Position numbers and translations under genes: made by a program. From Bremia lactucae (taxonomy: Eukaryota; Oomycota; Peronosporomycetes; Peronosporales; Peronosporaceae): a stretch of 64,000 nucleotides of DNA. A model generated the notes under the pieces. It was given only the letters and a program-made list of their open reading frames with translations. It had not been told where the DNA came from and ran no database searches. The DNA lies in NCBI RefSeq assembly GCF_004359215.1, contig NW_027152029.1, forward strand, positions 40,675-104,674, written 5' to 3'. This document shows, in pieces, positions 7,773 to 55,825 of this stretch; the stretch's first letter is position 1, and each line of letters opens with the position of its first letter.

Positions 7773-8220
7773 TTATGGAGGACATTGATCACGAGCGATC
7801 CCGTCGTCGCGACCTAGTAACGACGGTCGACCATGTTTCCCGCGAACAATTAAAAAAAGTTCGCAAGTGCGGTTGATCAACTTGCGCATGAAGGACAGAT
7901 CAGTCTTCAAAACGAGCTGGAGACAGCTCGTTAAAGATCTCTTCCTTGGAAAATAGAGCGGATCGTCTGGCTCATGAGAACCAGACTTTGACCTTAGACA
8001 ATCAGGCTTTGGCTCGGGATTATCAGGCTTTAGCAAATGCCGTAAACCGTGCCGGTTTAATTCAGCCCCGGAAAAAGCCTCATTCTGATGGTACAGGCGG
8101 AGACGCGCGACATGAAACGTAGGATGCGTACGCATTATACGAGGCAGATCGATCGTGTACGCATTCCTTGGCAATGAAATACACGAAATGGGTCGATATA
8201 CCTGTGCAATAATTCATTAC
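7773..8220 (-). pseudogene. integrase C-terminal remnant (element E)
   Basis: The minus-strand frame starting near 8174 reads NAYTIDLPRIMRTHPTFHVARLRLYHQN. This is the integrase C-terminal block seen in D as NAYTIELPRRMRSHPTFYV with RLRPYNQ. The preceding PFRV-like block is readable back to about 8215. The following linker toward the chromodomain is poorly conserved, as in other copies. Confidence 0.75.
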
Positions 8221-8664
8221 TGCCCTTATTTGTCACTACATGTTATGTAGGTTTGCCGAAGATAGTAGAACCCGATCATTAACATTATATATAAAAAATG
8301 TTTGTTTTTCCATTTTTGTCAGAGTACCCTTTCTGTCGGTCCACTGCAGAAACCGACCACTGCTTCTCTAGTCAGCACGAATTCTCCTGCTGACTCAGTT
8401 TTGTTTTTGCTGTCAGTGCCATCGGTGCGCACTGCGGAGATGCCGTTCTCCTCATTGGTGAGAGCATTATTGTTCTCACTAATATTATTATTGTCAATGC
8501 TGAGTCTTTCAGCATCATTATCAAAGTCGTAATAGCATTATCGCTATTGCTGTGTTTGTCCAGATTGAATCACCATTGGTATCCTTCGTTTTGACCATAG
8601 AGTCAATGCGTGATGAGCAAGAGCAAAAATTCTCATTGCTCGAGCGATCCTCCCCCGTTGAATA
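8221..8664. other. unassigned insert within element E
   Basis: No retroelement block is recognisable here. It is rich in small inverted repeats, for example TGCTGAGTCTTTCAGCA near 8498-8514. It separates the integrase C-terminal remnant from the inverted block to the right. Confidence 0.4.
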
Positions 8665-9108
8665 AGAGTCACCATGCGTCTATACGCACGGCCGAAAACA
8701 GTCCACTTCTCTCGCAAAAAATGGCGAGATGGTTGTCTTTCTTCGCGCAGTATAACTTTTCCGTGGAATATAAGCCAGGACGACTAAATGTCGTCGCTGA
8801 TGCCCTTTCGCGCCGGCCTTATTTGAGCCTGCTGCGCAAAACAACAATAAGCATAAGGCCTCTGTTTGCAACAAATAACAGTGAGCATAAGGCCACTGTT
8901 GTAACAATAAGTGTTCCGTCGTCAACATTACTCGACGACGTTATAAGGGCTTATCAAGAAGATAAGGCTCTTTAGAGTTGATGAAATACCTTAAAAATCC
9001 ATTCCGACAATCTTTAAAAGGATTGTCGAAATTGTATAGATCCTCAACAGATCGATATACAACACGCAGTAGGTTACTGTACTACACCGCCATGCTGGCG
9101 ACACACCT
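8665..9108 (+). mobile_element. inverted RNase H-end/linker block inside element E
   Basis: The plus strand reads MARWLSFFAQYNFSVEYKP, ADALSRRP and, further on, KLYRSSTDRYTTRSRLLYY. These are the end of RNase H and the linker before integrase, in D-like form (D: 32240-32610). Element E around it runs on the minus strand and lacks exactly this part between its own RNase H (9830) and integrase (9790). The block was therefore moved and inverted, or came from another copy. Confidence 0.75.
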
Positions 9109-9790
9109 ACTCATAAAGAAGGTGAGTATACGTGGTTCACGAAAAACGGTGTATGCTATATAGAAGCATACACTGAGATGTTGATGGCAAATTACACCAT
9201 CGGTAAGAAACACACTTCAACTCTTAAAAGAGTGGACGTATCCGCGAAGTATCTCTTCGAGGATACAATTCGTACGTTCTGTCTGACCATATTTTTTAGG
9301 ATGGTCAGAAGTTGACATTTTAACTGTGTTCCAAGTGATTTGAACACAGATTGCCAAAATTCTGACGCGAATCTGGGGTCTCGATCAAAGACCAGCTCGC
9401 GGGAATACCCATGGAGTCGAAATTATGTGTCAACAAAGACAGGAGTACAGCGTTTGGCTGTAATTGACTTTGGGACTGCAATAACATTTACCATATTGCT
9501 ACAAATATCAACAAACACAAGAGTGTTATTTTTTTTGCGATCGTCCGTGAAATTTGAAGACGAAGTACATAGTCACGGGCTGCCAACACTCTGCTGGAAC
9601 AGGCAGAGATTGTAACAGAGCACAGGATGAAGCAATGGGCTTCACCCGTTGACGAATTTCGCAAGCACGTAAGTACTTGCGGACGAACTCACACTGGCGT
9701 GGCCAGGAGAAGTCGCGACTTATCGTGAGATAGGTCTTTTCACGTCCACGATGACCAATTATTAGCGCATCGTGGCCCTCATACATGATG
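9109..9790 (-). pseudogene. integrase N-terminal and core remnant (element E)
   Basis: The minus strand reads MYEGHDALIIGHRGREKTY, then WPRQCEFVRKYLRACEIRQR, the HHCC zinc-binding region of Gypsy integrase with a Cys lost (C..C has become EIRQ). Further on come FDRDPRFASEFWQSVF (second catalytic Asp) and GQTERT-like sequence around the catalytic Glu near 9270. A poly-A/T run near 9532 and several stops break the frame. Confidence 0.8.
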
Positions 9791-9829
9791 CGTAAACGCC
9801 TATCATTATGAGTGGGGATGACGACAAGA

Positions 9830-10150
9830 ACAGTCTATCTACCAAGAGAAAGGCCCTAAACTTAGCCAGTGCATATACATGGCAAGGAGTTCCTTGTCAT
9901 GCACTGTTGCGTTTAGCTGGTTGAAGCTGACGCGATTGATAACAGACGACTAGCTCTGCACCGTCTGTCTCATATTGCATTAACGCACAGCCGATCGCAA
10001 ATTCGCTGGCGCCACAGACCACATGAAAAGGTCGGTTTTGGTCAGCAATCGCCAGGATAGGCGATTTAATCAAGCTTTGCTTGATATTCTCGAAGGAACA
10101 CTAACAATCAGCGTTCCAGGACCACTTTAAAATTTTCTTCAATAAAAAAG
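9830..10150 (-). pseudogene. RNase H remnant (element E)
   Basis: Minus-strand translation gives the CDASEFAIGCALMQY-type block and the NATVHDKELLAMY block, close to the D sequence (VCDASDFAISCALMQY; HDKKLLAMKYALAKF). Reading ends near FRAFLLG at 9830, where the domain is cut, and integrase begins at 9790. The missing end is found inverted at 8665-9108. Confidence 0.8.
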
Positions 10151-10159
10151 AATGAATTA

Positions 10160-10990
10160 CTGCCATTTCTGCATAATTGCGTGAGTACTTGTGCAGGTAC
10201 GCCGTTTAACCAAGAAACTTTCTACGTCCATTTTTATCGACTAGCCCAGGCCAATCGGTGATCGCCTTGATATTTTCTGGATCTGATCGTACACCGTGTT
10301 TACCCACGATGCACCCAAGAAGTGGCATTTCGCTTCCAGCGAATATACACTTTTTCAGATCTTGTGCTTACGCATAAGTGTAAGAACCTTTCGGACGTGG
10401 CTAGGATGTACTTCAACATCCGACTATGCGTTTATGGCTCTGCTATGAACGAAGACGTCTTCAAAAAAATTCGGTCCAAAATTCCGCACTGATCTCAACA
10501 GATTGGTTACACATCTGTTGAATGTTGCAGGGGCATTACGAAGCCCCTGTGGCATAACTAGCCACCCCCATAGCATGCCGCTTGAAGTGCTTACTACTGT
10601 GAACATAATATCTTGTTCACGCATAAGGATCTGATAGAATTCATCCATCAGATCTATTCATGCGTAGACAGTACTCTTTGACATACTATTAATGATTACG
10701 TCTTTTCGTGGTATCGGCGTTTGAGCCGGTACCATTGCAGCGTTTAATTTATTGAACGAATGCACAACCCGCCACCCTCCTGTTACTTTACGCACAGAGA
10801 AGGTCGGAGAGCTTTCTGGGAGGTTGACTCCCTCACATGACCCGCTGACAAGGGATCGGCAAAGAATTTGTCAAGCGCTAATACTTGTTCGCGGGGCAAT
10901 GACTACTGCTTCATGACACAGTATTTCGATCCTGTTATCAGGTCGGAGTATCCTTCCCAACTGCCTCTAGCTGTGGTTCTGCAGCCACAA
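10160..10990 (-). pseudogene. reverse transcriptase remnant (element E)
   Basis: The best block is 10648-10424: MDEFYQILMREQDI, TSSGMLWGWLVMPQGLRNAP, and FGPNFFEDVFVHSRA at the catalytic site. There the usual FDD reads FED, so the first catalytic Asp of the pair is Glu. Upstream pieces (the YCVMKQ block near 10905-10925 and IPRKD near 10700) and downstream pieces (HVRKVLTLMRKHK near 10370-10405) are in other frames or contain stops. Confidence 0.8.
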
Positions 10991-11099
10991 CAAGATCCTC
11001 TACGGTCGACTCTCCAGTCGATCTAGGACTCGCAATGTCTCTTATAGACGGTCGTTTAATATTTTCTTGGATGTTGCTATTCAAGCAAGCATCCTTGTT

Positions 11100-11715
11100 T
11101 CGTACCACTCAACTTATTCGAGAGGTCGAACTTCGATGCTACCTGTGCTTGGGGCACAGCCGTCGGTAACTATGATCATGTCACAATGGTGGACCTTTGA
11201 CGCTGCCTGTTTTTTTGCACAGCCGTCGGGATTTAACTCCACAAAGTGTTGAGTATTCACACAAAGGTCTTGTGCAGTCATGCTAACGACCGACCCACAA
11301 GTGAGGCTATCGCACTCACTCGTAGAACATCCACACGCTTGTGGACGCTCCAAGACGTTCATCAATTGGCCATCTGATGAACAAGAGACAGGCATCGTCA
11401 CGGCTTGATGCTGCCAATTTATGCATGGCTCGTAACTTCTGAGCCATGGTAATCCAAGGATGACATCAAATTTGTCATCCAAATCTAATACGATGATATC
11501 ATCATCGTGCTGTTAGCTTTTTAACGTGTATTGGATACCAACTTCACGTTTTTTAACCGTTACAGATGCGCCTGTTGCTAGGTGTTAGAGGGATATCGCG
11601 CTCAACAAATTTGAGTTTGCGATCTTCTAGCGATTGGCGTCGAATAAAAATTTTTGACGCCCCTCAATCGACTAGGGACTTTATTTGGAATTCATTTGCC
11701 ACTTTAATGCTAAGG
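11100..11715 (-). pseudogene. retropepsin-like protease remnant (element E)
   Basis: The active-site region reads SLVD, a stop, then GAS near 11655-11640: the catalytic Asp is kept but the next codon is TGA. It continues IRRQSLEDRKLKFVERDIPL. The C-terminal half is open at 11482-11114 with MDDKFDVILGLPWLRSYEP, the flap-distal ILGLPWL motif of Gypsy proteases. Aligned bases at three sites differ from D while keeping palindromic form. Confidence 0.8.
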
Positions 11716-11849
11716 TGATGATGTTAACCTCATCCCCTCGGCCAGTTACACACAATGTTTGTTTGTGAGGAGCAACTTTCGTCAAAAGGCCTGCAAATTC
11801 TTTTGACGTAGCGTGATAGCAGGGCGCTCCGTATTTACTGGCCCCTACC

Positions 11850-13006
11850 GTTTTTTCACGATTCGCCTCGCCATTGCGATTTCGTAACAGCGTCGTATCC
11901 GCGTCCTCCGCTGTTCCTTACGATAGGTCGGTCTTGTCGCTCAGTGTTTTTAGGTACTAGCCGTGGGGCACTACACTTATAGGCGTAATAGCCGTCTTTT
12001 GACAACGATTGCATTTTTGTAATCTTTTGTGACTTGAAGAGCGAGGTTTCTCTCTCTAAATACCATGGCTTCTGGACAACCGTTTTCTTGTCGTCTCGGT
12101 GGACAATAAGCACTACAGTGGACAAAGGCATGTTTAAGACTGAAGTCCTTCTGTATCACTATAGAAATCGCTTGGTCGAGCAACTCTAATTCTAGCCGGA
12201 ACAGGCAGGTCTTAACAGGGCCGTCTGCAAGACCTTTAATAAACACAGTCACCTCGGTTTGTTCATGATTGGATGAGTAACGATACCACTGACCAGATAT
12301 CGTGCATGTTGGGCATAAGCGTGCAGATCACGCTTGCCCTGGTTCAAATCCAGGAGCTCGGATCGAGCCCTGATTTCGGCACGTGGCGGCTCAAATGTTT
12401 GTCTGAGCCGGGCCTTCAAGACGTCATACGACCCAAAAATTAATGGGTCGTGAAGCTTAAGCGCCGCTGATGCCCTTTCGCGCCGGCACGATTTTGGGCC
12501 GCTCCAAGGCCCAAGATTTGGCACGTTCGGCTAAGTTGGACATGCCAAATTTTACTTTTGATGCATCATCTTTGATGTGGCCAGCTTCAATGGCGTCGTC
12601 TAATTGGACGAACCATATTAAAAAGGAGTTGCCTTCTATTGCTTTTAAACTCAAAGATTTCTATATTTAATCTTTCGGGTCGACGCGGAAGCGTCGGCCC
12701 ATAAGCAGCATTTACATGCTGCTGTCTCAACAGATCCAATTGTTAAGCACACTGTTCCCTCAACACCTCCGCGTGTTGAGAGCCTTGCTGGTGAAGTAAG
12801 GCTACTTTTTCCTGGGCTTCGTCGAGTTCATGTTGTATGAACTCGGTTATGGCGGCATGTTGTTCATCTGTGTTCAGAGTGAACAGCATGGCGCCAACGG
12901 CTGGTCCGCGTACGACCGAACTCATGCGTTCGATCGCTCTCCATTCAAAGTCACTCAAATGAGTGAAGTTGCGTGATAGCCTTCTTGAGGGGCTGGAAAG
13001 CTCCAT
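11850..13006 (-). pseudogene. Gag remnant (element E)
   Basis: Blocks follow in order on the minus strand: EFIQHELDEAQEKVALLHQQ (near 12850-12780), FVQLDDAIEAGHI.DDASKV (near 12615-12555), KARLRQTFEPPRAEIRARSE with KRDLHAYAQHARYL (12440-12300), and a decayed zinc knuckle YYAYKCSAPR near 11990-11955. Each has a close counterpart in D gag. An insertion of about 45 bases at 12463-12507 interrupts it and contains, in reverse orientation, the 22-mer that encodes ADALSRR at 8796-8817. Confidence 0.8.
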
Positions 13007-28235: not shown

Positions 28236-28688
28236 TGTAACAGGGTGTATCGTTACATGAAATTAACACTTAAAGGTTGTTAATTAATATATTATCGAAA
28301 AGGTAGATAATCTTTGGAGGATATTACTTTAAATAGTAATGTTCAAATTTCTTATCCATAAATTGGTATAGACAATTATATCTATTAATTCCGCAGACTA
28401 ATCAGCTGTAGATGTAAACAAAAGAGAGATACAGACAAGATAAGAAAAGAATTCAATTGCACGTTTAGTATTAGTTTATAATTAAGTTAGCATTTACAAG
28501 ATAGATAGAAGAGATACTTAATTGTATTAATACAGTTTCATTTAAACCTCTTTAAGTTAGTTGTCTTAAAGAGAAGTCTTCCTCTACACGTACTAGTGTA
28601 CGTGAAGCGACGTAAGGCACCACTCGCAACTGTAGCAGTGCGAAGTGGACTTGAACTGAAGCAGTACAAGTCGCCGTGTCCCTTTACA
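28236..28688 (+). repeat. 5' LTR of element D (first LTR of the array)
   Basis: It starts TGTAACAGGG, ends CCCTTTACA, and aligns throughout with 232-681. It differs from the LTR at 35318 at many positions, including the terminal bases. The five bases before it are GTCCA. Those after the last LTR of the array are GCTTC, so no shared target duplication brackets the array. Confidence 0.88.
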
Positions 28689-28690
28689 CC

Positions 28691-28702
28691 TGGTAGCACT
28701 TT
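28691..28702 (+). other. primer-binding site of element D
   Basis: TGGTAGCACTTT follows the LTR end after two bases, the expected position for a tRNA primer site starting with TGG. The same sequence occurs at the E LTR (13069-13080, complement). The specific tRNA is not assigned. Confidence 0.65.
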
Positions 28703-28831
28703 GTAGTCCGTCCAAGGACCACATTTTCTTCATCTAACATGTCCATGTTAGATGATAGTTGGAATACGCATCACGTTTCGCGTTAAAGCTACTCCTTTCT
28801 AAGTGACATCGAAAGGAGTGCGGTCGAACAA

Positions 28832-29916
28832 ATGAGTTCGACCGTAGGAAACGATGCAATCTTGGAAATGCTGTCCAATTTGGACAGAGATGCCCTCCAT
28901 TCAGCCATCGCCAAGTTCATACAACATGAACTTGACGAGATGAAGGAAAAAGTAGTCTTGCTGAATTAGCAAAGCTCTCAACAGGCAGAACTGTTGAGGT
29001 TACAACAGGTACAGACCCCTGTACCTGGGATGACGCATACGCGTCGTCCCGAAACCTTAAAGATTGATATCTCTAAGTGTAGGGGAGTCGAAGAAGACTC
29101 CCTCCTGAGATGGTTTGTCGAGTTGGACGATGCCATAGGGGCACGTCACATCGTCGACGATCAAATGCAAGTCGCATTCGCTCAATCAAATTTGGCAGGT
29201 CGTGCCAAAACTTGGGCATTGGGCCTTAAGTTGTGCGACCCATATGTCTTTGGGAGCTAGAGGCTTTTAAAGCCCGGCTCAAACAGACGTATGAACCGCC
29301 TAGGGCTGACTTCAGAGCTCGTTTAGAGCTTTTGAAACTCAAGCAAGGCAAGCGTGATGTTCACGCATATGCCCAGCACATACGACTCTTAGCGATTTGT
29401 ATTACAAATAACCCAGTCCATGAACACACGTTGATTACGGTGTTCATGCAAGGTCTTACGTATGGTTCCGTTAAGACCCACCTGTTCCGCTTGGAACTGG
29501 ATACGCTTGAAGAAGCAATATCCGTTGCGGAACAGGAGGACTTTAGCTTGAGACAGGCTCAAGCTAGTTCGTCATCGTATCGTCCTCCAAGACGACACGG
29601 GCTAGGAGGTCTAGAACCCATGGACCTCTCTTACATCGAAAGCGAGAGACCTCGCTTTTCGAGGAATATGCGATTGCAGAAATGCCATCGCTGCCAAAAA
29701 TTAGGACACTACGCTCATGAGTGTAGTGCCCCACGCCCAGTACCTTTCGGTACTGAACGTAATTTTGACCGTATGCCAAAAAGGGCAACGGTCGCGGGTC
29801 CGACGTTGTTGCGAAAACGCAATGGCAAGGCGGACCGCCAAAAAACGGTCGGGGTCAGTAGGGGGCGCAACGCCCTTCTGATCCAGCAACCTCAAGAAAA
29901 TTTGCAAATCTCTTGA
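28832..29916 (+). pseudogene. Gag of element D, broken
   Basis: The ATG at 28832 opens a structural Gag with an N-terminal helical segment, a capsid-like region (DAIGARHIVDDQMQVAFAQS, then KARLKQTYEPPRADFRARLE, KRDVHAYAQHIRLL) and a CCHC zinc knuckle CHRCQKLGHYAHEC at about 29682-29723 for RNA packaging. A TAG at 28967 replaces what is probably a Gln codon. A one-base deletion near 29256 throws the frame to a stop at 29258; the remainder is open from 29233 to 29916. Coding bases form repeated short hairpins, for example 29419-29448, 29545-29565, 29707-29728 and 29738-29755. Confidence 0.88.
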
Positions 29917-30449
29917 CTAAAGTTGCTCCAGACACACAATCACTATGTGTCTCTGCACCTGATGAGGTATCCCTCATCACGTTGATGTTAAAAGTGACAA
30001 ATGATTTGTCACTCAGAGCCCTAGTGAACTGTGGCAAGTCGAATAACTTTATTCGTCGCCAGTCGCTAGAAGGTCGTAGGCTCAAATATGTTGAGCGCGA
30101 CATCCCTCTAACGAGGACGACGGTGCGTCTAGCGACAGGCGCATCGATAACAGTAATGAAACGCGTAGTGAAATTTCACTACACGTTAAAAGATTTACAG
30201 TATGATGATGATTTCATCGTACGGGATTTGGATGACAAATTTGATGTCATCCTTGGTTTACCTTGGCTCAGAAAATACGAGCCAAGGATCAGCTGGCAGC
30301 ATCGATCCGTAAAGATGCCTGCCACTTGCTCATCAGATGGCCATCTGATGAAAGTCTTGGAGCGTCCACAAGCGTGTGGATGTACTACGAGTGAGTGCGA
30401 TGGCCACACTTGTGGTACAGTCGTCACAAGATCACATTGTGATTGCTAA
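29913..30449 (+). pseudogene. retropepsin-like protease of element D, catalytic Asp lost
   Basis: The region ALVNCGKSNNFIRRQS (about 30021-30068) is the active-site segment, but the catalytic Asp is Asn here (E keeps VD at the same place), so the enzyme should be inactive. ILGLPWLRKYEPRISW at about 30250-30300 is the C-terminal conserved block. The frame overlaps the Gag end in another phase. It ends at repeated AATCACATTGTGATT palindromes (30430-30475). The segment includes the longest perfect palindromes: 30165-30182 (18 bp) and 30331-30350 (20 bp). Confidence 0.85.
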
Positions 30450-30828
30450 TCACATTGTGATTACTAATCACACTGTGGAGTCAGCTGCTGCGGCTGTGCG
30501 AATGCACAGGCAGCGCCGAAGGTCAACCACTCGAAGAAGTCGAGTGGATCGAGACATGAATGTACGCCTGGCGGGCGACATTCAAGGAGTATACCGGTTG
30601 CCCCAAAGGGACAACACGATGATCCTAGGTCGAGTAGAGAGTCGACCGTAGCGTACCCAACTGTGATAGCGCAATCACACTCGGAAAACGTTGAGAGAAC
30701 AAGTCCCCACGTACTTGAGGAGAAATCCCCTCAAATGGTAGAAGTTACTAGACTTCTCAATCCCAAAAGATTAATCCCCGGCAGCCTGTGGATAAATCCC
30801 AGGAAATAAAATCGAGACATTAAATGTC
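30450..30828 (+). pseudogene. protease-RT linker of element D
   Basis: This is an Arg/Ser-rich linker in broken frames between protease and RT. There is no catalytic motif, and it contains several hairpins (for example CTAGGTCGAG/CTCGACC-type near 30624-30647). Confidence 0.5.
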
Positions 30829-31562
30829 TTGGTTAATGACGGATCGAGAGTAGGCGCTTCTACTCTTGATCTGTATGCGCCTCCGAAGTTAACTTCGGAG
30901 ATAACTCAATTACCAACCCTAGAACCTAAGCGGTTCTTGAGAGATCTGCATTGTGGGAAAATCAAGCAGATCTGCGTACTCGTCACAGAGGACGATTACG
31001 TAACCGACATTCGGTCAGCGGTAATTTTTGCAGAGAACGAACGGGTTCTCAGCAGCTCATCAATGGACGAAAATGTCCTCGATGAGAAGACTCGGATTGA
31101 GAGATACAGTACTCAATCTTGGGAGTCACTCAAGGGAAATCCTCTATACGAGGATTTAATAGAATTCAGGGATGTATTCCCTGAAGCAGTTCCATGCGAG
31201 TTACCTAAGGATAAAGGCACTCGACATGAGATCGAGCTCAAACCGGGCTCGAAGTACTGTGTCATGAAGCAGTGGCCACTGCCTCGTGAACAAGTACTTG
31301 CGATCGACAAATTCTTTGCCGATCGGGTAAAAGCGGGCCATGTGAGGGAATCAACTTCCCCACATAGCTCTCCGACCTTCTGTGTGCGAAAGGCCACAGG
31401 AGGGTGGCGGATAGTGCACGCATTCAATAAACTGAATGCTGCAACGATACCGGCTCAAACGCCGATACCGAGAAAAGACGTAATCATAGACGGTATGTCT
31501 AAGAGTACTATCTTTTCTTCTATGGATCTGATGGATGGGTTCTATCAAATCCTTATGCGTGA
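30829..31562 (+). pseudogene. reverse transcriptase of element D, cut by an assembly gap
   Basis: The open frame carries the N-terminal RT blocks HEIELKPGSKYCVMKQWPLP (31226-31285), SPHSSPTFCVRKATGGWRI (31354-31410), FNKLNAATIPAQTPIPRKDV and SSMDLMDGFYQILMR (31518-31560, with the first catalytic Asp). It then runs into 195 undetermined bases that should contain the FDD motif. RT resumes at 31758 and joins the connection region (RKFLGLAAYLHKYSRNYAEM). The frame is open on both sides of the gap, so activity of this domain cannot be judged. Confidence 0.88.
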
Positions 31563-31757
31563 NNNNNNNNNNNNNNNNNNNNNNNNNNNNNNNNNNNNNN
31601 NNNNNNNNNNNNNNNNNNNNNNNNNNNNNNNNNNNNNNNNNNNNNNNNNNNNNNNNNNNNNNNNNNNNNNNNNNNNNNNNNNNNNNNNNNNNNNNNNNNN
31701 NNNNNNNNNNNNNNNNNNNNNNNNNNNNNNNNNNNNNNNNNNNNNNNNNNNNNNNNN
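31563..31757. other. assembly gap (195 N)
   Basis: A run of undetermined bases inside the RT domain of element D. It implies that the repeat array was difficult to assemble and warns that copy number nearby may be misjudged. Confidence 0.99.
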
Positions 31758-32400
31758 ACCGACTGGCCAGTTCCAGTCGATGTCAAGGGACTTAGAAAGT
31801 TCCTTGGTTTAGCGGCGTACTTGCACAAGTACTCTCGCAATTATGCAGAGATGACAGTTCATCTCTCTCGTCTCTTGAAAAAAGACGAGAAATGGTTATG
31901 GAACGCTGATTGTCAGCGTTCGTTTGAAGGTATCAAGCAAAGCTTGATGCAATCGCCCATCTTGGCGATTGCAGATCAAGACAGACCATTCCATGTGGTC
32001 TGTGACGCCAGCGATTTCGCAATCAGCTGCGCGTTAATGCAATACGATACAGACGGCGCGGAGCGCGTCGTCTGTTACCAATCGCGTCAGCTGCAACCAG
32101 CTGAACGCAATTATCCAGTGCATGACAAGAAACTCCTTGCCATGAAATATGCACTGGCTAAGTTTAGGGTCTATCTTCTCGGAGATGGACCGTTCATCGT
32201 ATATACGGACCATGCGTCATTACGCACGGCTTCGTAAACAGCCCACATCTCTCGCAAAGAATGACGAGGTGGCTATCCCTCTTCGCGTAGTACAATTTTT
32301 CCGTGGAATATAAACCAGAACGACTTAATGTCGTCGCTGATGCGTTATCACGCCGACCCGGTTTCGAGTCAGCAGTGCCCTCCAACAGTGAAAATGATGT
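31758..32400 (+). pseudogene. RNase H of element D
   Basis: The block sequence is FHVVCDASDFAISCALMQYD (first Asp), YQSRQLQPAERN, HDKKLLAMKYALAKFRVYLL (Glu of the usual DKELLA is Lys) and VYTDHASLRT (TDH present). The frame stops at 32235, and the end of the domain (VEYKPERLNVVADALSRRP) is readable in another frame at about 32300-32360. The loss of Glu and the shift argue against activity. Confidence 0.85.
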
Positions 32401-33603
32401 TACTGGTGCAACACTTACTACGAGTGTTCCGTCATCAATCTTAGTTGATGACATAAAGAAAGCCTACAAAGAATATAAAGACGTTCTATGTTTGATGGAT
32501 CATTTAATAAAACCATTTGATAAATCTTTAAAAGATTTACCGGCTTTATATCGATCGTCATCCGATCGATACACAATACGTAACGGCTTATTGTATTACA
32601 CAACCGTTACCGGTGACACCCCACGTGTCGTCGTCCCGACTCACAATGATTTGCGCTTGCATCATGTATGAGTGTCACGATGGTTCAACAAGTGGACATC
32701 GTGGACGTGAGAAGACTTACCTCACAATAGATCGCGACTTTCACTGGCCCCGCCAGTATCAGTTCGTGCGCAAGTACATTCGTGCTTACGAGGTATGTCA
32801 ACGGGTGAAGCCTAGCCCTTCATCCCATCCGAATTGGAGCGATTTTTTACCGATGGTCGAATACGCCATCAATAATTCGGTGCATGCGTCTACAACACCT
32901 ACACCGTTCTTTGTGAATGGCTTACGTTGTCCTCGCATACCCACCCAATTAGAGGGATCCTCTACTTTAGGGGGGGGGGGTGGACTTGCACGAGCAAACC
33001 AATTCTGGCTCATGCTCATCACGCGTCAAAGTTAACAACGACGCCAGTGATGTCGATGCCGAAGAAATCGATATCGAAGATGAGAATCTCATGGCAGTAC
33101 ACACAAAGCGTACTAAAAAAGACAAAGCAAATGAGTTAGCAGAAGAGTATCTGCTAACTCGAGAATCAATAATCCGTTTCGTTCAGGATTCCATTGCTAA
33201 CGCAGTGGACCGACAGAAACGGAATGCAGACAAAAATGGAAGAGCAAATGTTCATTCATTTAAAATTAATGACCTAGTGCTACTCTCTACGGTAAACTTA
33301 CCTAAGCGATTAGTCACTAACGTGGGTAGCAGTAAACTACTACCCAAGTTCATTGGTCCTTTCCGTGTACTGCATCGCAGAGGCAATGCGTACACAATAG
33401 AATTGCCACGTAGGATGCGTTCGCATCCTACGTTTTACGTTCGTCGGCTCCGCCCGTACAATCAGTATGATGCTTCTTCCGAGGACAAATTTTACCACCC
33501 TTTTCAAGAATCCCTAAAAGATTCATGTGATCGCGAACCAGATTCTCATGTTGAACCTGAAGTTTCTCATGCTGGTTCCGAATATCCTCGAAACTACGAT
33601 TAG
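32401..33603 (+). pseudogene. integrase of element D, catalytic core deleted
   Basis: The N-terminal zinc-binding part is present (ECHDGSTSGHRGREKTYLT, RAYEVCQRVKP near 32790-32815). At about 32818 the sequence jumps to PNWSDFLPMVEYAINNSVHAS, a block that normally follows the catalytic Glu. All three catalytic acids (two Asp, one Glu) are therefore missing. A run of nine G at about 32971-32979 breaks the frame. The C-terminal part is open at 32980-33603 with LPKFIGPFRVLHRRGNAYTI and RRMRSHPTFYVRRLRPYNQ. Bases 33409-33432 form an 11-bp-arm hairpin encoding RRMRSHPT. Confidence 0.88.
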
Positions 33604-34131
33604 TTGGCGACAGCTCATCGCGAACTGCAAATTATTTCCGTACGTACTCCAACATGGAGTACGCACTCTTCGTACGGTCTTCCAGCCGCTCGATATGGTG
33701 AGCCTCCACCGTCTGCTCCAACGAGATACTCTTGCCGCGCTCGTGGTCAAGTTCCTCCTCCTAATCATGGAGGAAGTGGTCGATTTTGTCGATCCTCGAC
33801 ATTAGATCCGACATACGGTTCGGATCTAATTTTCCCTCCTCCACCACAACCATTGGTGTATTTCCACGGTGGTCAACGTTTCCTTGTGGAACGTATCCAG
33901 AACCACCGTGATGTGAAGGGGCAGCGAACGAGTTATCTTGTTCGCTGGCGTGGTTATCCACCTTCACATGACAACTGGGAGCCTCGTTCCCAGCTGGTTG
34001 CTGACGTTGAGAACCTCGTCCGTCAGTATGACGAGACCCATCCGATAGTTCAGAAGGCCCATCGGAAAACACGCGCCCCTAACGCTTGTAAATCGACTGT
34101 AAAACGTCAATCGCATCACACATCTCAATAG
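33604..34131 (+). pseudogene. chromodomain region of element D
   Basis: A 175-codon frame contains a complete chromodomain at about 33877-34044: FLVERIQNHRDVKG, TSYLVRWRGYPPSHDNWEP and LVADVENLVRQYDETHP, with the aromatic positions Y/W/W of the methyl-lysine cage. It probably continues the integrase C-terminus after a stop at 33601-33603, and in E and the composite units it lies in the same place. Chromodomains of this kind target integration to marked chromatin in chromoviruses. Confidence 0.85.
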
Positions 34132-34188
34132 AGATGCGAACCCTTCACCAGGGCGTAGAATGGTAATAGACATCCCCTTTTACCCTCT

Positions 34189-35190
34189 TCAAGTTGTATA
34201 CACAACACGGACAGGGATCACCCACGTCAGGCATGAAAACCCAGCCTCACGTGACAACCGATGCGATTTAAACTTTGCACTGGTTGGAGTTCGTTTCTCA
34301 AACTTAACGCAATTCGCGTTAAGTTTTTGAAGCAAGGCCTCGCTTCCAATGTCTTTGACATTGTGAATGAACGCGCTCCAGGCTTGCATAAGCGAGACTT
34401 TATCTCGCTTATTGTTGCCACTAAACCATCGATGCTTTACAAAAGCATCGAGATAAAAATCCTCCTCAGCGCGAAAGTTCTTCGCGCTGGGATCAAGGCC
34501 ATGTAGCTTTGTCGCAATAAATAAAGGATATATATTGTGAGGAGTAGTTTCTCCAGATAAGCTACTAATTAGCCTTTCTGACAAAAGCCACGGCTTCTTC
34601 GGCAGGGGCGAGATGAGACATTTTACTGTCTTCACTCGCCTGAAAAGTACCCACTGAAGCAGGGATACCACAAGAACTTTTCTTACGATGGCTTACGCCA
34701 TCGTCATCACCTTGCACAGAAATACGTGCAGGTGACCGTACGGGAGACGGAACGAGCGATGAGGGATCATCCTCATCGTCGGGTCCAAATAGACTATTAA
34801 CTCGTCTATCAGAATGAGCCCTCTAATTCGAAGGCTCATAGTCAGCCGTCTGACGTCTATCAGGCGACTGTTCCATTCTCCCCGAGTCGGCCATTTCGTC
34901 CGACTCCCAAAGAGGGGTCGTATTCTCGTGGTGAATCACCACGTATACTCGCAACGTCTAGTGTTGTGCGAGTAGAAGATACTACGGCAGACGTTCCGTT
35001 TGCCGCAAGAGATAACAGTGCGTCACCCGCGGCTGCACAAACTGCAGCCGAAGGGTATTCAGACTAAGGTCTAGTACAGTCGTGCAAACGACCAAACCAG
35101 AAGTGAGAAGAGATTTGCAAATTCTCTTGAGGTTGCTGGATTTTTAGCGCAGCACTATAAACACCCCGCATGAGTTGATTCTTCATGCGA
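34189..35190 (-). pseudogene. antisense frame of element D
   Basis: On the strand opposite to pol, between chromodomain and 3' LTR, 34671-34189 is open for 160 codons. It includes FRAEEDFYLDAFVKHRWFSG, KRDKVSLMQAWSAFIHNVKD and KFEKRTPTSAKFKSHRLSRE. The N-terminal acidic part (near 34750-35010, with S-D-D-E-D-D-type sequence) is recognisable but has stops. This copy keeps the frame through the site where the composite units lost a base (34463-34466). An insertion at about 35046-35150 contains a 34-base inverted copy of the Gag end. Confidence 0.6.
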
Positions 35191-35301
35191 TGGAATTTAA
35201 AATGATGGTTCTAACCAATCAACATCATTTTAAAATTAAGTGGTCACATAGTGACCACTCCATCGTGACCACTCCATCCAATGACAGTCAGAGTGATTGT
35301 C

Positions 35302-35317
35302 GTTTAGGGAGGGGTGA
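35302..35317 (+). other. polypurine tract of element D
   Basis: The purine-rich TAGGGAGGGGTGA stretch lies immediately before the LTR and recurs before every LTR of the array. This is the usual plus-strand priming site. Confidence 0.6.
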
Positions 35318-35825
35318 TGTAACGGGGTGTATCGTTACATGAAATTAACACTTAAAGATTGTTCATTAATATATTATCTAAAAGGTAGATAATATTTGGA
35401 GTATATTTCTTTATATAGTAATGTTTGGAATTCTTATTCATAATAGGTATAGACCATTATCTATATTCCGCAGACTAATCAGCTGTAATATAAACAAAAG
35501 AGAGATGTAGATAAGATAAGATAAGAATTCAATTGCATGTTTAGTTTAGTTTATAATTAAGTTCGGATTTACATGATAGATAGAAGAGATACTTACTTTA
35601 TTATACAGTTTTCATTTAATTCTCTTTAAGCTAGTTGTCTTAAAGAGAAGTCTTCCTCTGCACGTACTAGTGTACGTGAAATAACGTAGGGCACCACTCG
35701 CAACTGAAGCAGTGCGAAGTGGACTTGAACTGAAGCAGTACAAGTCGTAGTACAAGAAGAGTATTTTACCCATACAATAGATTTACCAGAACAACGGTTC
35801 ACCAACCGAAGTGTGCCCCATTACA
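35318..35825 (+). repeat. second LTR of the array, with 3' extension
   Basis: It starts TGTAACGGGG and ends GTGCCCCATTACA. Compared with 232-681 it carries about 60 extra bases near the 3' end (from ACAAGAAGAGTATTTTACCC to CAACCGAAG). It closes element D and opens composite unit 1. The right side has no primer-binding site; F-body sequence follows at once. Confidence 0.85.
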
Positions 35826-40320: not shown

Positions 40321-40445
40321 GGGTTCCGGTCCGTACGGATGGTACGGGCGGAGCCGACCAACGTAAATCGTAGGATGCGTTCGCATCCTACGTGGCAATT
40401 CTATTGTGTACGGCTCCGCCCGTACCATCAGTACGTGGCTTCTTC
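40321..40445. repeat. fold-back junction between body F and the D-type tail, unit 1
   Basis: GTACGGGCGGAGCCG at about 40341-40355 is matched by CGGCTCCGCCCGTAC at about 40417-40431, and the centre is CGTAGGATGCG TT CGCATCCTACG. As a result both strands encode the same integrase C-terminal block: plus RRMRSHPT and RLRPYHQY, minus RRMRTHPT and RLRPYHPYG. Body F runs leftward from it and the D-type tail runs rightward. Confidence 0.8.
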
Positions 40446-41010
40446 CGAGGACGGATTTCACCACCCTTTTCAAGAATCTCCAAAAGATTCGTGTGATCGT
40501 GATCCAGATTCTCATGTTGAACCTGAAGTTTCTCATGCCGGTTCCGAATATCCTCGAAACTACAATGACTGACGACATCATCTCATCGCGAACAGCATGA
40601 TATTTTCGTTCGTACTCCAACATGGAGTACGCACTCTTCGAACGGTCTCCCAACCGCTCAATATGGTGAGCCTGCACCGTCTGCTTCAACGAGCGACGCT
40701 TGCCGCGCTCGTAGTCAAGTCCCTCCTCCAAATCATGGAGGAAGTGACCAATTTTTCGATCCTTGACATTAGATCCGACATACGATTCGGAGCTAATTTT
40801 CCCTCCTCCACCACATCCATTGGTAGATTCCGACGGACGTTTCCTTGTGGAACGTATCCAGAACCACTTTGATGTGAAGGGGCAGCGAACGAGTTATCTT
40901 GTTCGCTGGCGTGGTTATCCACCTTAACATGACAGCTGGGAATCTCGTTCCCAGCTGGTTGCTGACGTTGAGGGCCTCGTCCGTCAGTATGAGGAGACCC
41001 ACCCGATGGT
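40446..41010 (+). pseudogene. D-type integrase end and chromodomain, unit 1
   Basis: The plus strand continues from the integrase C-terminal block into the same linker as D. It then gives a chromodomain at about 40846-41010 (FLVERIQNHFDVKG, TSYLVRWRGYPP, a TAA stop near 40921, HDSWESRSQLV). The stop is shared by units 2 and 3. Confidence 0.75.
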
Positions 41011-42067
41011 TCAGAAGGCCCATCGGAAAACACGCGCCTGGTGCTTGTAAATTGATTGCAAAACCTCAATCGCATCACGCATGTCAATAGAGATGCGAGC
41101 CCTTCCCCAGGGCGAAGAAAGGAAGTAAACATCCCATTTCGCTCGTTTCGTGTTGTCGACACAACGCGTAGAGGGATCACCCCACCCGAGACATGAAAGC
41201 CCAGCCTCACGTGACAACCGATGCAATTTATACTTTGCACCGTTTGGAGTTCGTTTCTCAAACTTAACGCGATTCGCGTTAAGTTTTTGAAACCAGGCCT
41301 CGCGTCCAATGTCATTGACATTGCGAATGAACGCGCTCCAGGCTTGCATAAGCGATACTTTATCTCGCTTATTGTTGCCACTAAACCAGCGATGCTTAAG
41401 AAAGGCATCGAGATAAAAATCTTCTCAGCCCGAAAGTTCTTCGCGCTGGGTTCAAGGCCATGTAGCTTTGTCGCAATAAATAAAGGATATTTGTTGTGAG
41501 GAGTAGTTTCTTCAGACAAGCTATTGATTAGACGTTCTGGCAAAAGCCACGGCTTCTTCTCAGGGGCGAGATGAGACATTTTACTGTCTTCACTCCCCTG
41601 AGTGGTACCCACTGAAGCAGGGGTACCACAAGAACTTTTATTACGATGGCTTACGCCATCGTCATCACCTTGCACATAACAGGTGCAGGTGACCGTACGG
41701 GAGACGGAACGGGCGATGAGGGATCATCCTCATCGTCGGATCCAAATAGACTATTAACTCGTCTATCAGAATGAGCCCTCTCATTCGAAGGCTCATAGTC
41801 AACCGCCTGACGTCTATCAGGCGACTGTTCCATTCTCCCCAAGTCGGCCATTTCGTCTGACTCGCATTCGTAGTCGACCTCCAAAGAGGGGTCGTATTCA
41901 CGTGGTGAATCACCACGTGCACTCGCAACATCTAGTGTTGTGCGAGTGGAAGATACTACGGCAGACGTTCCGTCTGCTGCAAGAGATAACAGTGCGACAC
42001 CCGCGGCTGCACGAACCGCAGCCGAAGGCGCAGCACTATCGACACCCCGCATGAGTTGATTCTTCAT
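41011..42067 (-). pseudogene. antisense frame of the composite unit, copy 1
   Basis: Opposite to the D-type pol tail. The N-terminal part (42067-41651, 138 codons) is Ala-rich then acidic: DPSLEVDYECESDEMADLGR, LFGSDDEDDPSSPVPSPVRS. After a frame change the 41675 frame carries LPERLINSLSEETTPHNKYP. A one-base deletion relative to D near 41421 shifts it again into 41349-41011 with MQAWSAFIRNVND, then EAWFQKLN, KFEKRTPNGAKYKL and RLSREAGLSCL. At least two shifts break it. The start lies about 130 bases from the LTR, so an antisense promoter in or near the LTR would be needed. Confidence 0.6.
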
Positions 42068-47205: not shown

Positions 47206-47895
47206 GGGTTCCGGTCCGTACGGATGGTACGGGCGGAGCCGACCAACGTAAATCGTAGGATGCGTTCGCATCCTACGTGGCAATTCTATTGTGTACGGCT
47301 CCGCCCGTACCATCAGTACGTGGCTTCTTCCGAGGACGGATTTCACCACCCTTTTCAAGAATCTCCAAAAGATTCGTGTGATCGTGATCCAGATTCTCAT
47401 GTTGAACCTGAAGTTTCTCATGCCGGTTCCGAATATCCTCGAAACTACAATGACTGACGACATCATCTCATCGCGAACAGCATGATATTTTCGTTCGTAC
47501 TCCAACATGGAGTACGCACTCTTCGAACGGTCTCCCAACCGCTCAATATGGTGAGCCTGCACCGTCTGCTTCAACGAGCGACGCTTGCCGCGCTCGTAGT
47601 CAAGTCCCTCCTCCAAATCATGGAGGAAGTGACCAATTTTTCGATCCTTGACATTAGATCCGACATACGATTCGGAGCTAATTTTCCCTCCTCCACCACA
47701 TCCATTGGTAGATTCCGACGGACGTTTCCTTGTGGAACGTATCCAGAACCACTTTGATGTGAAGGGGCAGCGAACGAGTTATCTTGTTCGCTGGCGTGGT
47801 TATCCACCTTAACATGACAGCTGGGAATCTCGTTCCCAGCTGGTTGCTGACGTTGAGGGCCTCGTCCGTCAGTATGAGGAGACCCACCCGATGGT
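47206..47895 (+). pseudogene. fold-back junction and D-type chromodomain tail, unit 2
   Basis: Identical in layout to 40321-41010, including the two-strand integrase block (47206-47330) and the stop in the chromodomain. Confidence 0.75.
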
Positions 47896-48952
47896 TCAGA
47901 AGGCCCATCGGAAAACACGCGCCTGGTGCTTGTAAATTGATTGCAAAACCTCAATCGCATCACGCATGTCAATAGAGATGCGAGCCCTTCCCCAGGGCGA
48001 AGAAAGGAAGTAAACATCCCATTTCGCTCGTTTCGTGTTGTCGACACAACGCGTAGAGGGATCACCCCACCCGAGACATGAAAGCCCAGCCTCACGTGAC
48101 AACCGATGCAATTTATACTTTGCACCGTTTGGAGTTCGTTTCTCAAACTTAACGCGATTCGCGTTAAGTTTTTGAAACCAGGCCTCGCGTCCAATGTCAT
48201 TGACATTGCGAATGAACGCGCTCCAGGCTTGCATAAGCGATACTTTATCTCGCTTATTGTTGCCACTAAACCAGCGATGCTTAAGAAAGGCATCGAGATA
48301 AAAATCTTCTCAGCCCGAAAGTTCTTCGCGCTGGGTTCAAGGCCATGTAGCTTTGTCGCAATAAATAAAGGATATTTGTTGTGAGGAGTAGTTTCTTCAG
48401 ACAAGCTATTGATTAGACGTTCTGGCAAAAGCCACGGCTTCTTCTCAGGGGCGAGATGAGACATTTTACTGTCTTCACTCCCCTGAGTGGTACCCACTGA
48501 AGCAGGGGTACCACAAGAACTTTTATTACGATGGCTTACGCCATCGTCATCACCTTGCACATAACAGGTGCAGGTGACCGTACGGGAGACGGAACGGGCG
48601 ATGAGGGATCATCCTCATCGTCGGATCCAAATAGACTATTAACTCGTCTATCAGAATGAGCCCTCTCATTCGAAGGCTCATAGTCAACCGCCTGACGTCT
48701 ATCAGGCGACTGTTCCATTCTCCCCAAGTCGGCCATTTCGTCTGACTCGCATTCGTAGTCGACCTCCAAAGAGGGGTCGTATTCACGTGGTGAATCACCA
48801 CGTGCACTCGCAACATCTAGTGTTGTGCGAGTGGAAGATACTACGGCAGACGTTCCGTCTGCTGCAAGAGATAACAGTGCGACACCCGCGGCTGCACGAA
48901 CCGCAGCCGAAGGCGCAGCACTATCGACACCCCGCATAAGTTTCTTCTTCAT
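47896..48952 (-). pseudogene. antisense frame of the composite unit, copy 2
   Basis: Same breaks as copy 1. The region toward the LTR differs: the N-terminus reads MKKKLMRG, and the frame extends upstream through the tail into the LTR start for 188 codons from 49102, because a stop present in copy 1 is lost. Confidence 0.6.
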
Positions 48953-54078: not shown

Positions 54079-54768
54079 GGGTTCCGGTCCGTACGGATGG
54101 TACGGGCGGAGCCGACCAACGTAAATCGTAGGATGCGTTCGCATCCTACGTGGCAATTCTATTGTGTACGGCTCCGCCCGTACCATCAGTACGTGGCTTC
54201 TTCCGAGGACGGATTTCACCACCCTTTTCAAGAATCTCCAAAAGATTCGTGTGATCGTGATCCAGATTCTCATGTTGAACCTGAAGTTTCTCATGCCGGT
54301 TCCGAATATCCTCGAAACTACAATGACTGACGACATCATCTCATCGCGAACAGCATGATATTTTCGTTCGTACTCCAACATGGAGTACGCACTCTTCGAA
54401 CGGTCTCCCAACCGCTCAATATGGTGAGCCTGCACCGTCTGCTTCAACGAGCGACGCTTGCCGCGCTCGTAGTCAAGTCCCTCCTCCAAATCATGGAGGA
54501 AGTGACCAATTTTTCGATCCTTGACATTAGATCCGACATACGATTCGGAGCTAATTTTCCCTCCTCCACCACATCCATTGGTAGATTCCGACGGACGTTT
54601 CCTTGTGGAACGTATCCAGAACCACTTTGATGTGAAGGGGCAGCGAACGAGTTATCTTGTTCGCTGGCGTGGTTATCCACCTTAACATGACAGCTGGGAA
54701 TCTCGTTCCCAGCTGGTTGCTGACGTTGAGGGCCTCGTCCGTCAGTATGAGGAGACCCACCCGATGGT
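54079..54768 (+). pseudogene. fold-back junction and D-type chromodomain tail, unit 3
   Basis: Same sequence and same chromodomain stop as in units 1 and 2. Confidence 0.75.
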
Positions 54769-55825
54769 TCAGAAGGCCCATCGGAAAACACGCGCCTGGT
54801 GCTTGTAAATTGATTGCAAAACCTCAATCGCATCACGCATGTCAATAGAGATGCGAGCCCTTCCCCAGGGCGAAGAAAGGAAGTAAACATCCCATTTCGC
54901 TCGTTTCGTGTTGTCGACACAACGCGTAGAGGGATCACCCCACCCGAGACATGAAAGCCCAGCCTCACGTGACAACCGATGCAATTTATACTTTGCACCG
55001 TTTGGAGTTCGTTTCTCAAACTTAACGCGATTCGCGTTAAGTTTTTGAAACCAGGCCTCGCGTCCAATGTCATTGACATTGCGAATGAACGCGCTCCAGG
55101 CTTGCATAAGCGATACTTTATCTCGCTTATTGTTGCCACTAAACCAGCGATGCTTAAGAAAGGCATCGAGATAAAAATCTTCTCAGCCCGAAAGTTCTTC
55201 GCGCTGGGTTCAAGGCCATGTAGCTTTGTCGCAATAAATAAAGGATATTTGTTGTGAGGAGTAGTTTCTTCAGACAAGCTATTGATTAGACGTTCTGGCA
55301 AAAGCCACGGCTTCTTCTCAGGGGCGAGATGAGACATTTTACTGTCTTCACTCCCCTGAGTGGTACCCACTGAAGCAGGGGTACCACAAGAACTTTTATT
55401 ACGATGGCTTACGCCATCGTCATCACCTTGCACATAACAGGTGCAGGTGACCGTACGGGAGACGGAACGGGCGATGAGGGATCATCCTCATCGTCGGATC
55501 CAAATAGACTATTAACTCGTCTATCAGAATGAGCCCTCTCATTCGAAGGCTCATAGTCAACCGCCTGACGTCTATCAGGCGACTGTTCCATTCTCCCCGA
55601 GTCGGCCATTTCGTCCGACTCGCATTCGTAGTCGACCTCCAAAGAGGGGTCGTATTCACGTGGTGAATCACCACGTGCACTCGCAACATCTAGTGTTGTG
55701 CGAGTGGAAGATACTACGGCAGACGTTCCGTCTGCTGCAAGAGATAACAGTGCGACACCCGCGGCTGCACGAACCGCAGCCGAAGGCGCAGCACTATCGA
55801 CACCCCGCATAAGTTTCTTCTTCAT
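54769..55825 (-). pseudogene. antisense frame of the composite unit, copy 3
   Basis: Same as copy 2, including the 188-codon frame from 55975, except for Leu to Ser in the MADLGRM motif (MADSGRM here). Confidence 0.6.

Follow-up and report, generated by a model that had tools for sequence, protein, structure and literature searches.

A chain of short perfect hairpins along a Ty3/Gypsy retrotransposon lineage of Bremia lactucae

Ty3/Gypsy chromodomain retrotransposons share a set of parts—long terminal repeats (LTRs), Gag, protease, an integrase with a C-terminal SH3 domain, and a chromodomain. Folding over whole genomes has been described for RNA viruses as genome-scale ordered RNA structure (GORS), and template-switch mutation at quasipalindromes has as its hallmark a multi-base change of one arm. 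We know of no named cause for a hairpin excess like the one reported here, and a literature search of titles and abstract openings returned no report of hairpin-chain self-complementarity in LTR retrotransposons. The DNA analyzed here (the window) is a 64,000-nucleotide stretch of the oomycete Bremia lactucae (assembly GCF_004359215.1, contig NW_027152029.1, positions 40,675 to 104,674 of the forward strand; all coordinates below are window positions). It contains an element, D, which has LTRs, Gag, protease, the C-terminal part of integrase, and a chromodomain, and which is a Ty3/Gypsy LTR retrotransposon of the chromovirus-like kind. Elements of the D clade are lined over their whole length with a chain of short hairpins, nearly all of whose pairs are Watson-Crick, and the pattern in D is real.

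We scanned for perfect inverted repeats with arms of at least 8 bases and loops of at most 15, retaining non-overlapping hairpins greedily. From 28236 to 35317, D holds 46 such hairpins (195 bases, 31563-31757, are N and were excluded), against 1.50 expected from 60 dinucleotide shuffles (standard deviation 1.30, maximum 6); with arms of at least 9 the counts are 27 against 0.35, and with arms of at least 10 they are 12 against 0.05. The resulting density of 6.7 per kilobase (kb) against 0.22 expected, about thirtyfold, agrees with the first-pass annotation, which had estimated about seven arms of 8 per kb against 0.2-0.25; the ten hairpins that it had named between 29401 and 30352 are all present, nine of them perfect and one (29707-29728) with the single mismatch it had described. 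Within five open reading frames (ORFs) of D—gag, PR, RT-N, IN-C, and chromo—we found 17 hairpins, where codon-preserving shuffles gave a summed expectation of 1.55. Cellular DNA of the window, in which the pattern had been thought absent, carries 5 hairpins in 17 kb against 4.9 expected (2 against 2.75 at 15.8-25.6 kb; 3 against 2.17 at 56.8-64 kb); neither shuffled sequence nor cellular genes reach the density of D. When arms of 7 are admitted, the first of these regions lies slightly above its mean (16 against 8.9, with a shuffle maximum of 18, n = 40), and the second has 6 against 7.7. Folding energies were likewise far from expectation: 45 windows of 150 nucleotides (nt) in D had mean z scores of -3.72 on the plus strand and -3.94 on the minus strand, while mean scores for 98 cellular windows lay between -0.24 and 0.14.

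In observed counts, compared without shuffles, the excess of inverted pairs in D is confined to short spacers, with 50 at loops of 0-19 nt (peak at 5) and then 7, 4, and 1 in successive 20-nt bins; direct and mirror repeats lack such a rise. The 5' arms show an excess of A (131 A and 94 T among 417 bases), and the loops are A+T-rich (155 of 236 bases, against a fraction of 0.53 in spacers), with A at 0.339 and T at 0.318. Hairpin spacing has no regularity (coefficient of variation 0.886 against 0.753 for random placement), and codon phase gave no signal, the three phase classes holding 19, 9, and 11 hairpins where shuffle means were 1.57, 0.81, and 1.53. An Rfam search produced nothing above threshold (one sub-threshold match, 25.9 of 60 bits), and a search of viral_contigs with two proteins found no close relatives. 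We also considered and rejected an inserted family of palindromic repeats: the hairpin sequences differ by eye, although no dedicated similarity search was made, and direct repeats of at least 8 nt within 400 nt do not rise at short distances.

The survey of other sequences covered the window and fetched loci L009-L046 minus L029 and L040, whose copies are related, such that hairpin counts are not independent. DNA similar to D, to the decayed relative E, or to the tail of the composite units next to D contained 737 hairpins in 107,328 bases (6.87/kb), and the remaining surveyed DNA, which includes divergent Gypsy pieces with dense patches, 140 in 143,550 bases (0.98/kb). No clear excess was seen in four Copia loci (4 hairpins in 13.3 kb against 2.6 expected; 3 against 0.75 at one of them), in one RVT_1 locus that is LINE-like by our own reading (0 in 3 kb against 0.9), or in several other Gypsy relatives. 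A pol tree separates, with support of 1.0, D, L017, E, L028a, L011, L012, L024, and L031 from W683, L025, L013, L028b, L045, F, L014, and L015; pol matches on the first side carry 1.4 (L028a), 1.9 (E), or 3.4 to 6.3 hairpins/kb, and those on the opposite side 0 to 0.9, except for F (2.2) and L045 (2.6). Branches within the D-side group are weakly supported, and decay may have removed hairpins from older copies. The expectation that the excess would be confined to this lineage was thus largely borne out, the D clade being richest, with the exception of L045, a more distant Gypsy element with an intact frame and a weaker excess, 9 hairpins in 3.2 kb against 0.6 expected; in a by-hand comparison of two short alignable reverse transcriptase (RT) pieces, L045 and D had no common hairpin centre.

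Hairpins are partly shared and partly particular to each family. Several of those in E occupy the same places as in D, and the E-family tail (L028 2860-4360 and L013 2205-3570), which has no match to the D tail at E 1e-6, carries a separate set of hairpins, many of which occur in one of the two copies only. For the chromodomain and tail, the comparison took in 18 other sequences (two composite units that are nearly identical and 16 locus segments, of which two come from one place). For 11 of 12 D hairpins, a majority of the covering sequences have the perfect form; eight additional hairpins, imperfect in D, reach perfection in half or more of the sequences.

Comparison of the D clade with four E-family sequences, about 25% divergent in the aligned pieces, yielded 724 stem pairs, 459 of them unchanged and 200 changed on one side; 65 had changed on both sides, against 37.6 expected if the arms were independent. 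Among these two-sided changes, 31 end in Watson-Crick pairs; 27 of 5000 permutations gave at least that many. The figure of 31 is slightly generous, as some entries represent one place under alternative alignments. These compensatory changes support the view that, over deep time, local pairing was either kept or built anew. For 24 D-clade hairpins an E-family relative has lost or lacks the pairing; both arms differ in 22 of these cases, 19 of which have at least two changes per arm. Lopsidedness between arms in the 24 was 1.05 against a binomial 1.00 (P 0.40); a class-by-class comparison with pseudo-hairpins gave 1.07 against 0.81 for 39 cases, without a significance test.

Among possible causes of the pattern we rank first, at a probability of about 0.4, weak, diffuse, lineage-specific selection for local foldback of the element's nucleic acid. 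Substitutions completing a pair in either arm would tend to persist, with the exact position of a hairpin being of little weight; by analogy, the gain might be a self-folded genome less open to antisense RNA pairing and silencing or, alternatively, one that packs more compactly into Gag particles. The folded molecule could be genomic RNA, minus-strand cDNA, both of these, or double-stranded DNA in the form of cruciforms, and the near-equal behavior of the strands suggests that more than plus RNA is involved. Selection for foldback is favored by the density and shuffle tests, the folding scores, the paired changes between D and E, and the both-arm differences at depth, as well as by the separate hairpins of the unmatched E-family tail, the uneven distribution among lineages, and the many perfect genome copies of two hairpins (418 and 565).

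A number of observations weigh against such selection. Stems called from other copies did not evolve more slowly between D and the E family (0.261 against 0.248, ratio 1.05), and shared variants made up 29 of 133 hairpin-breaking changes, close to the 82 of 357 in the background once majority-derived alleles were set aside; the comparison of shared with private variants (odds ratio 0.76, p 0.068) is suggestive only. The two strands fold alike, and near-perfect stems contain no surplus of G.U over A.C (27:38 in D, 17:22 in E, 8:9 in the composite tail, and 4:7 in L045; pooled, 56 against 76, p 0.098). Variants in stems created G.U 92 times and A.C 96 times, against 372 and 385 in non-stem columns. 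Within the family, divergence of stems was lower than that of non-stem sites (0.0676 against 0.0919, or 0.74; lower in five of six regions), a figure in which a milder ascertainment bias remains. We set aside the lower stem divergence obtained when hairpins were called in D itself as ascertainment bias; with calling from third copies it was gone at depth and kept within the family only at the ratio of 0.74 just given. We likewise discounted the high frequency of pair-completing alleles (20 majority-derived among 34 gains), for which decay in the outgroup gives the same picture. Private variants are probably mostly decay after insertion, and every variant test is therefore diluted.

Gradual mutational perfecting ranks second, a serious possibility that we hold somewhat less probable than selection for foldback. 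Here, near-palindromes would fold during reverse transcription or repair, mismatches would be converted from the other arm, and hairpins would accumulate without benefit; the reverse transcriptase or the replication of this lineage would have to have a special property. Strand symmetry, the lack of a general G.U preference, stem sites that evolve as fast as others, short loops, the separate hairpins of the unmatched tail, and a pattern that tracks the reverse-transcriptase lineage are all consistent with such a process. Among variants with two to six changes per hairpin, 91 of 200 were confined to one arm, against 78.5 from pseudo-hairpins (P 0.035, among related copies), and shared variants fell at near-palindrome mismatches 1.5-fold more often than background (0.119 against 0.079 per site), 12 of 23 of them towards pairing. 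Against this process, the excess of one-arm variants is modest and varies with the number of changes (67 of 121 against 305 of 642 in the control for two changes, 22 of 55 against 120 of 395 for three, and 1 of 20 against 34 of 199 for four), at depth a difference limited to one arm occurs in only two of 24 hairpins, and lopsidedness is what chance would give. Private variants at mismatches occurred at the background rate (0.314 against 0.308 per site), and 25 of 61 went towards pairing, roughly as transition bias predicts, although these variants, most of them probably post-insertion, have limited power for the reverse-transcription phase. Neither the shared nor the private variants at mismatches show a clear lean towards pairing. 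Overwriting of an arm in one step appears, from these alignments, to have left at most a mild trace among copies and none at depth. Template switching that perfects near-palindromes, one of two causes raised by the first-pass annotation, is accordingly matched by the mild one-arm excess among copies and not by the deep comparison or by any hot spots of private mutation.

Selection for RNA structure, the other cause it raised, fits in a general sense insofar as pairing is kept at depth by compensatory changes; as selection on the plus strand it is not supported, insofar as G.U is not preferred over many pairs and the two strands fold alike, two pairs counted genome-wide being the exception. In its narrow form—selection acting solely on the folded genomic RNA of the plus strand, on the model of GORS in RNA viruses—it ranks third and seems unlikely to us. 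Very low folding energy relative to shuffles and covariation between arms speak for it, as do genome-wide counts at two stem pairs: the pair of 33922-33947 is G-C in 418 copies, A-T in 2, G.U in 32, and A.C in 12, and that of 28977-28998 is perfect in 565, G.U in 40, and A.C in 21. Both favor G.U (72:33 together, p 0.0002), a result that shared descent may inflate. On the other side stand a minus strand that folds as well as the plus strand, the parity of G.U and A.C in near-perfect stems and alignment variants, deep one-sided changes of 52:40 that are not significant, and loops about equally rich in A and T.

A function of the double-stranded DNA, through cruciforms or structure-specific protein binding, we regard as improbable. 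It would account for the strand symmetry and the A+T-rich loops, and an inversion junction in neighboring units lies at 33408-33433, one of the two longest-armed short-loop hairpins; the irregular spacing and the hairpin sequences, which differ by eye (no motif search was made), argue against it, and we know of nothing that would require dozens of cruciforms in one element. Chance, base composition, or codon usage, ruled out by the dinucleotide and codon-preserving shuffles, contradicted by the cellular genes and by the Copia and LINE-like loci, and with nothing found in its favor, has a negligible probability. More generally, and only tentatively, a strand-blind process, whether mutational or selective, may be turning the whole lineage, coding sequence included, into short perfect palindromes, gradually and through both arms.

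The features are collected in the table. The LTRs of D (28236-28690 and 35318-35752) are 90.8% identical, and its Gag, protease, and integrase C-terminal domain matched PF03732, PF08284, and PF24626 above cut-off in Pfam, with a chromodomain following the integrase (PF00385, E 1.9e-14). The RT part preceding the masked stretch matched PF00078 below cut-off, and D pol is 56-60% identical to the frame of L045. Hairpin density is lowest in the integrase region (3.4/kb). Gag of D has 245 relatives, and among the best 120 of these the ones named by organism are nearly all from Peronospora matthiolae. The genome that we scanned comprises 115.9 Mb in 220 contigs; the assembly's description gives 115 Mb, 53.3 Mb of it annotated as Gypsy (PMC6570648).

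Features of the window (positions within the 64,000-nucleotide stretch; hairpins are perfect, with arm and loop lengths in nt)
Feature	Position	Strand	Remarks
Element D, Ty3/Gypsy LTR retrotransposon with chromodomain	28236-35752	+	LTR pair and Pfam domains; earlier-noted stretch ends at 35317, before 3' LTR
5' LTR of D (end approximate)	28236-28690	+	2 hairpins (arms at least 8), 4.4/kb
Leader and start of Gag region	28691-29232	+	7 hairpins, 12.9/kb, maximum density in D
Gag ORF	29233-29916	+	Retrotrans_gag above cut-off; zinc knuckle slightly under cut-off
Protease ORF	29913-30449	+	RVP_2; 6 hairpins, 11.2/kb
RT ORF, N-terminal part	30829-31560	+	Stops at masked stretch 31563-31757
Integrase C-terminal part	32980-33603	+	SH3_Tf2-1
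Chromodomain ORF	33604-34131	+	Pfam chromo
3' tail of D	34132-35317	+	11 hairpins, 9.3/kb; antisense ORF inside, 34189-34671
Element E, decayed D relative, hairpin-rich	8066-12956	-	67-83% DNA identity to D in pieces
D-like chromodomain and tail in adjacent composite unit, hairpin-rich	40369-42028	+	Repeats at 47254-48913, 54127-55786
Hairpin, arm 8, loop 9	28261-28285		
Hairpin, arm 9, loop 8	28548-28573		
Hairpin, arm 12, loop 2	28730-28755		
Hairpin, arm 9, loop 11	28791-28819		
Hairpin, arm 9, loop 6	28821-28844		One compensatory pair versus E
Hairpin, arm 8, loop 1	28871-28887		One compensatory pair versus E
Hairpin, arm 9, loop 5	28912-28934		A-T in D, G-C in E
Hairpin, arm 8, loop 6	28977-28998		G-C in D, C-G in E; 565 perfect genome copies
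Hairpin, arm 9, loop 4	29006-29027		Different hairpin at same place in E
Hairpin, arm 9, loop 12	29419-29448		
Hairpin, arm 9, loop 5	29544-29566		
Hairpin, arm 8, loop 4	29639-29658		
Hairpin, arm 8, loop 4	29960-29979		
Hairpin, arm 10, loop 1	29993-30013		
Perfect palindrome, arm 9	30165-30182		
Hairpin, arm 8, loop 7	30230-30252		Identical in E
Hairpin, arm 9, loop 9	30261-30287		T-A in D, A-T in E
Perfect palindrome, arm 11	30330-30351		
Hairpin, arm 8, loop 1	30447-30463		
Hairpin, arm 8, loop 5	30527-30547		
Perfect palindrome, arm 10	30881-30900		
Hairpin, arm 8, loop 5	31137-31157		
Hairpin, arm 8, loop 5	31165-31185		
Hairpin, arm 8, loop 4	31847-31866		
Hairpin, arm 9, loop 3	31901-31921		
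Hairpin, arm 10, loop 6	31948-31973		
Hairpin, arm 8, loop 7	31981-32003		
Hairpin, arm 8, loop 6	32431-32452		
Hairpin, arm 9, loop 1	32521-32539		
Hairpin, arm 9, loop 5	32549-32571		
Hairpin, arm 11, loop 6	33133-33160		
Hairpin, arm 12, loop 2	33408-33433		Site of inversion junction in neighboring units
Hairpin, arm 9, loop 3	33643-33663		
Hairpin, arm 11, loop 8	33801-33830		
Hairpin, arm 8, loop 10	33922-33947		418 perfect genome copies
Hairpin, arm 11, loop 5	34300-34326		
Hairpin, arm 10, loop 5	34388-34412		
Hairpin, arm 10, loop 3	34429-34451		
Hairpin, arm 9, loop 5	34467-34489		
Hairpin, arm 8, loop 4	34685-34704		
Hairpin, arm 8, loop 6	34757-34778		
Hairpin, arm 8, loop 1	34927-34943		
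Hairpin, arm 8, loop 13	34946-34974		Most other copies have C-G as outer pair where D has T-A
Hairpin, arm 8, loop 5	35030-35050		Full-length perfection only in D, 1 of 18
Hairpin, arm 12, loop 15	35196-35234		
Hairpin, arm 9, loop 3	35239-35259		

The first 600 bases of D (28236-28835) are 100% identical at six other places in the genome, and those copies diverge further in; together with the 9% LTR difference in D, this suggests mosaic elements. Directly after D, 35318-56397 is made up of three units in head-to-tail order, each about 6.88 kb long and 98-99% alike, with LTRs at 35318, 42198, 49068, and 55941 that neighboring units share. In each unit a reversed Gypsy piece meets a D-like tail at an inverted junction (40338-40429, 47223-47314, and 54096-54187), and this junction coincides with the hairpin found in D at 33408-33433, as though the palindrome had served for an exchange of strands. 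The D tail matches at least 39 further genome places (40 were scored). Its antisense ORF (minus strand) resembles, over part of its length, 28 proteins, 26 of them unnamed; the other two, from Hyaloperonospora and Peronospora, are named RxLR effector (candidate), names that may be automatic.

An excess of perfect hairpins of about thirtyfold thus extends across an abundant retrotransposon lineage, where it is easily visible. If it is selected, the lineage, with its hundreds of copies, would be a natural system in which to ask what mobile RNAs gain by folding, for example escape from RNA silencing or packaging; if it is mutational, it would point to a bias of reverse transcription or repair able to reshape whole genes. 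Under either cause, scans of such genomes for palindromes, small RNAs, and structure can be confounded by the hairpins.

Compared with its Ty3/Gypsy kin, D differs in the chain of perfect hairpins that passes through coding and non-coding sequence alike; relatives such as L013, L014, and L025, at about 50-60% amino-acid identity in pol, have few. With GORS it shares a folding energy far below that of shuffles over its whole length, and it departs from GORS in its near-perfect short Watson-Crick hairpins, its equal strands, and its LTR retrotransposon host; we do not assign the pattern to GORS because the expected plus-strand bias was looked for and did not appear. Nor do we assign it to template-switch mutation, given that the hallmark is at best faint: quasipalindrome-associated switching (PMC7202029) would perfect inverted repeats without regard to strand, as in the pattern here, but multi-base change of one arm amounts in D to a mild trace at most. 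Finally, conserved structure in LTRs (PMC3601003) likewise concerns conserved features of LTR elements, whereas the hairpins of D extend over the whole element and are densest outside the LTR.

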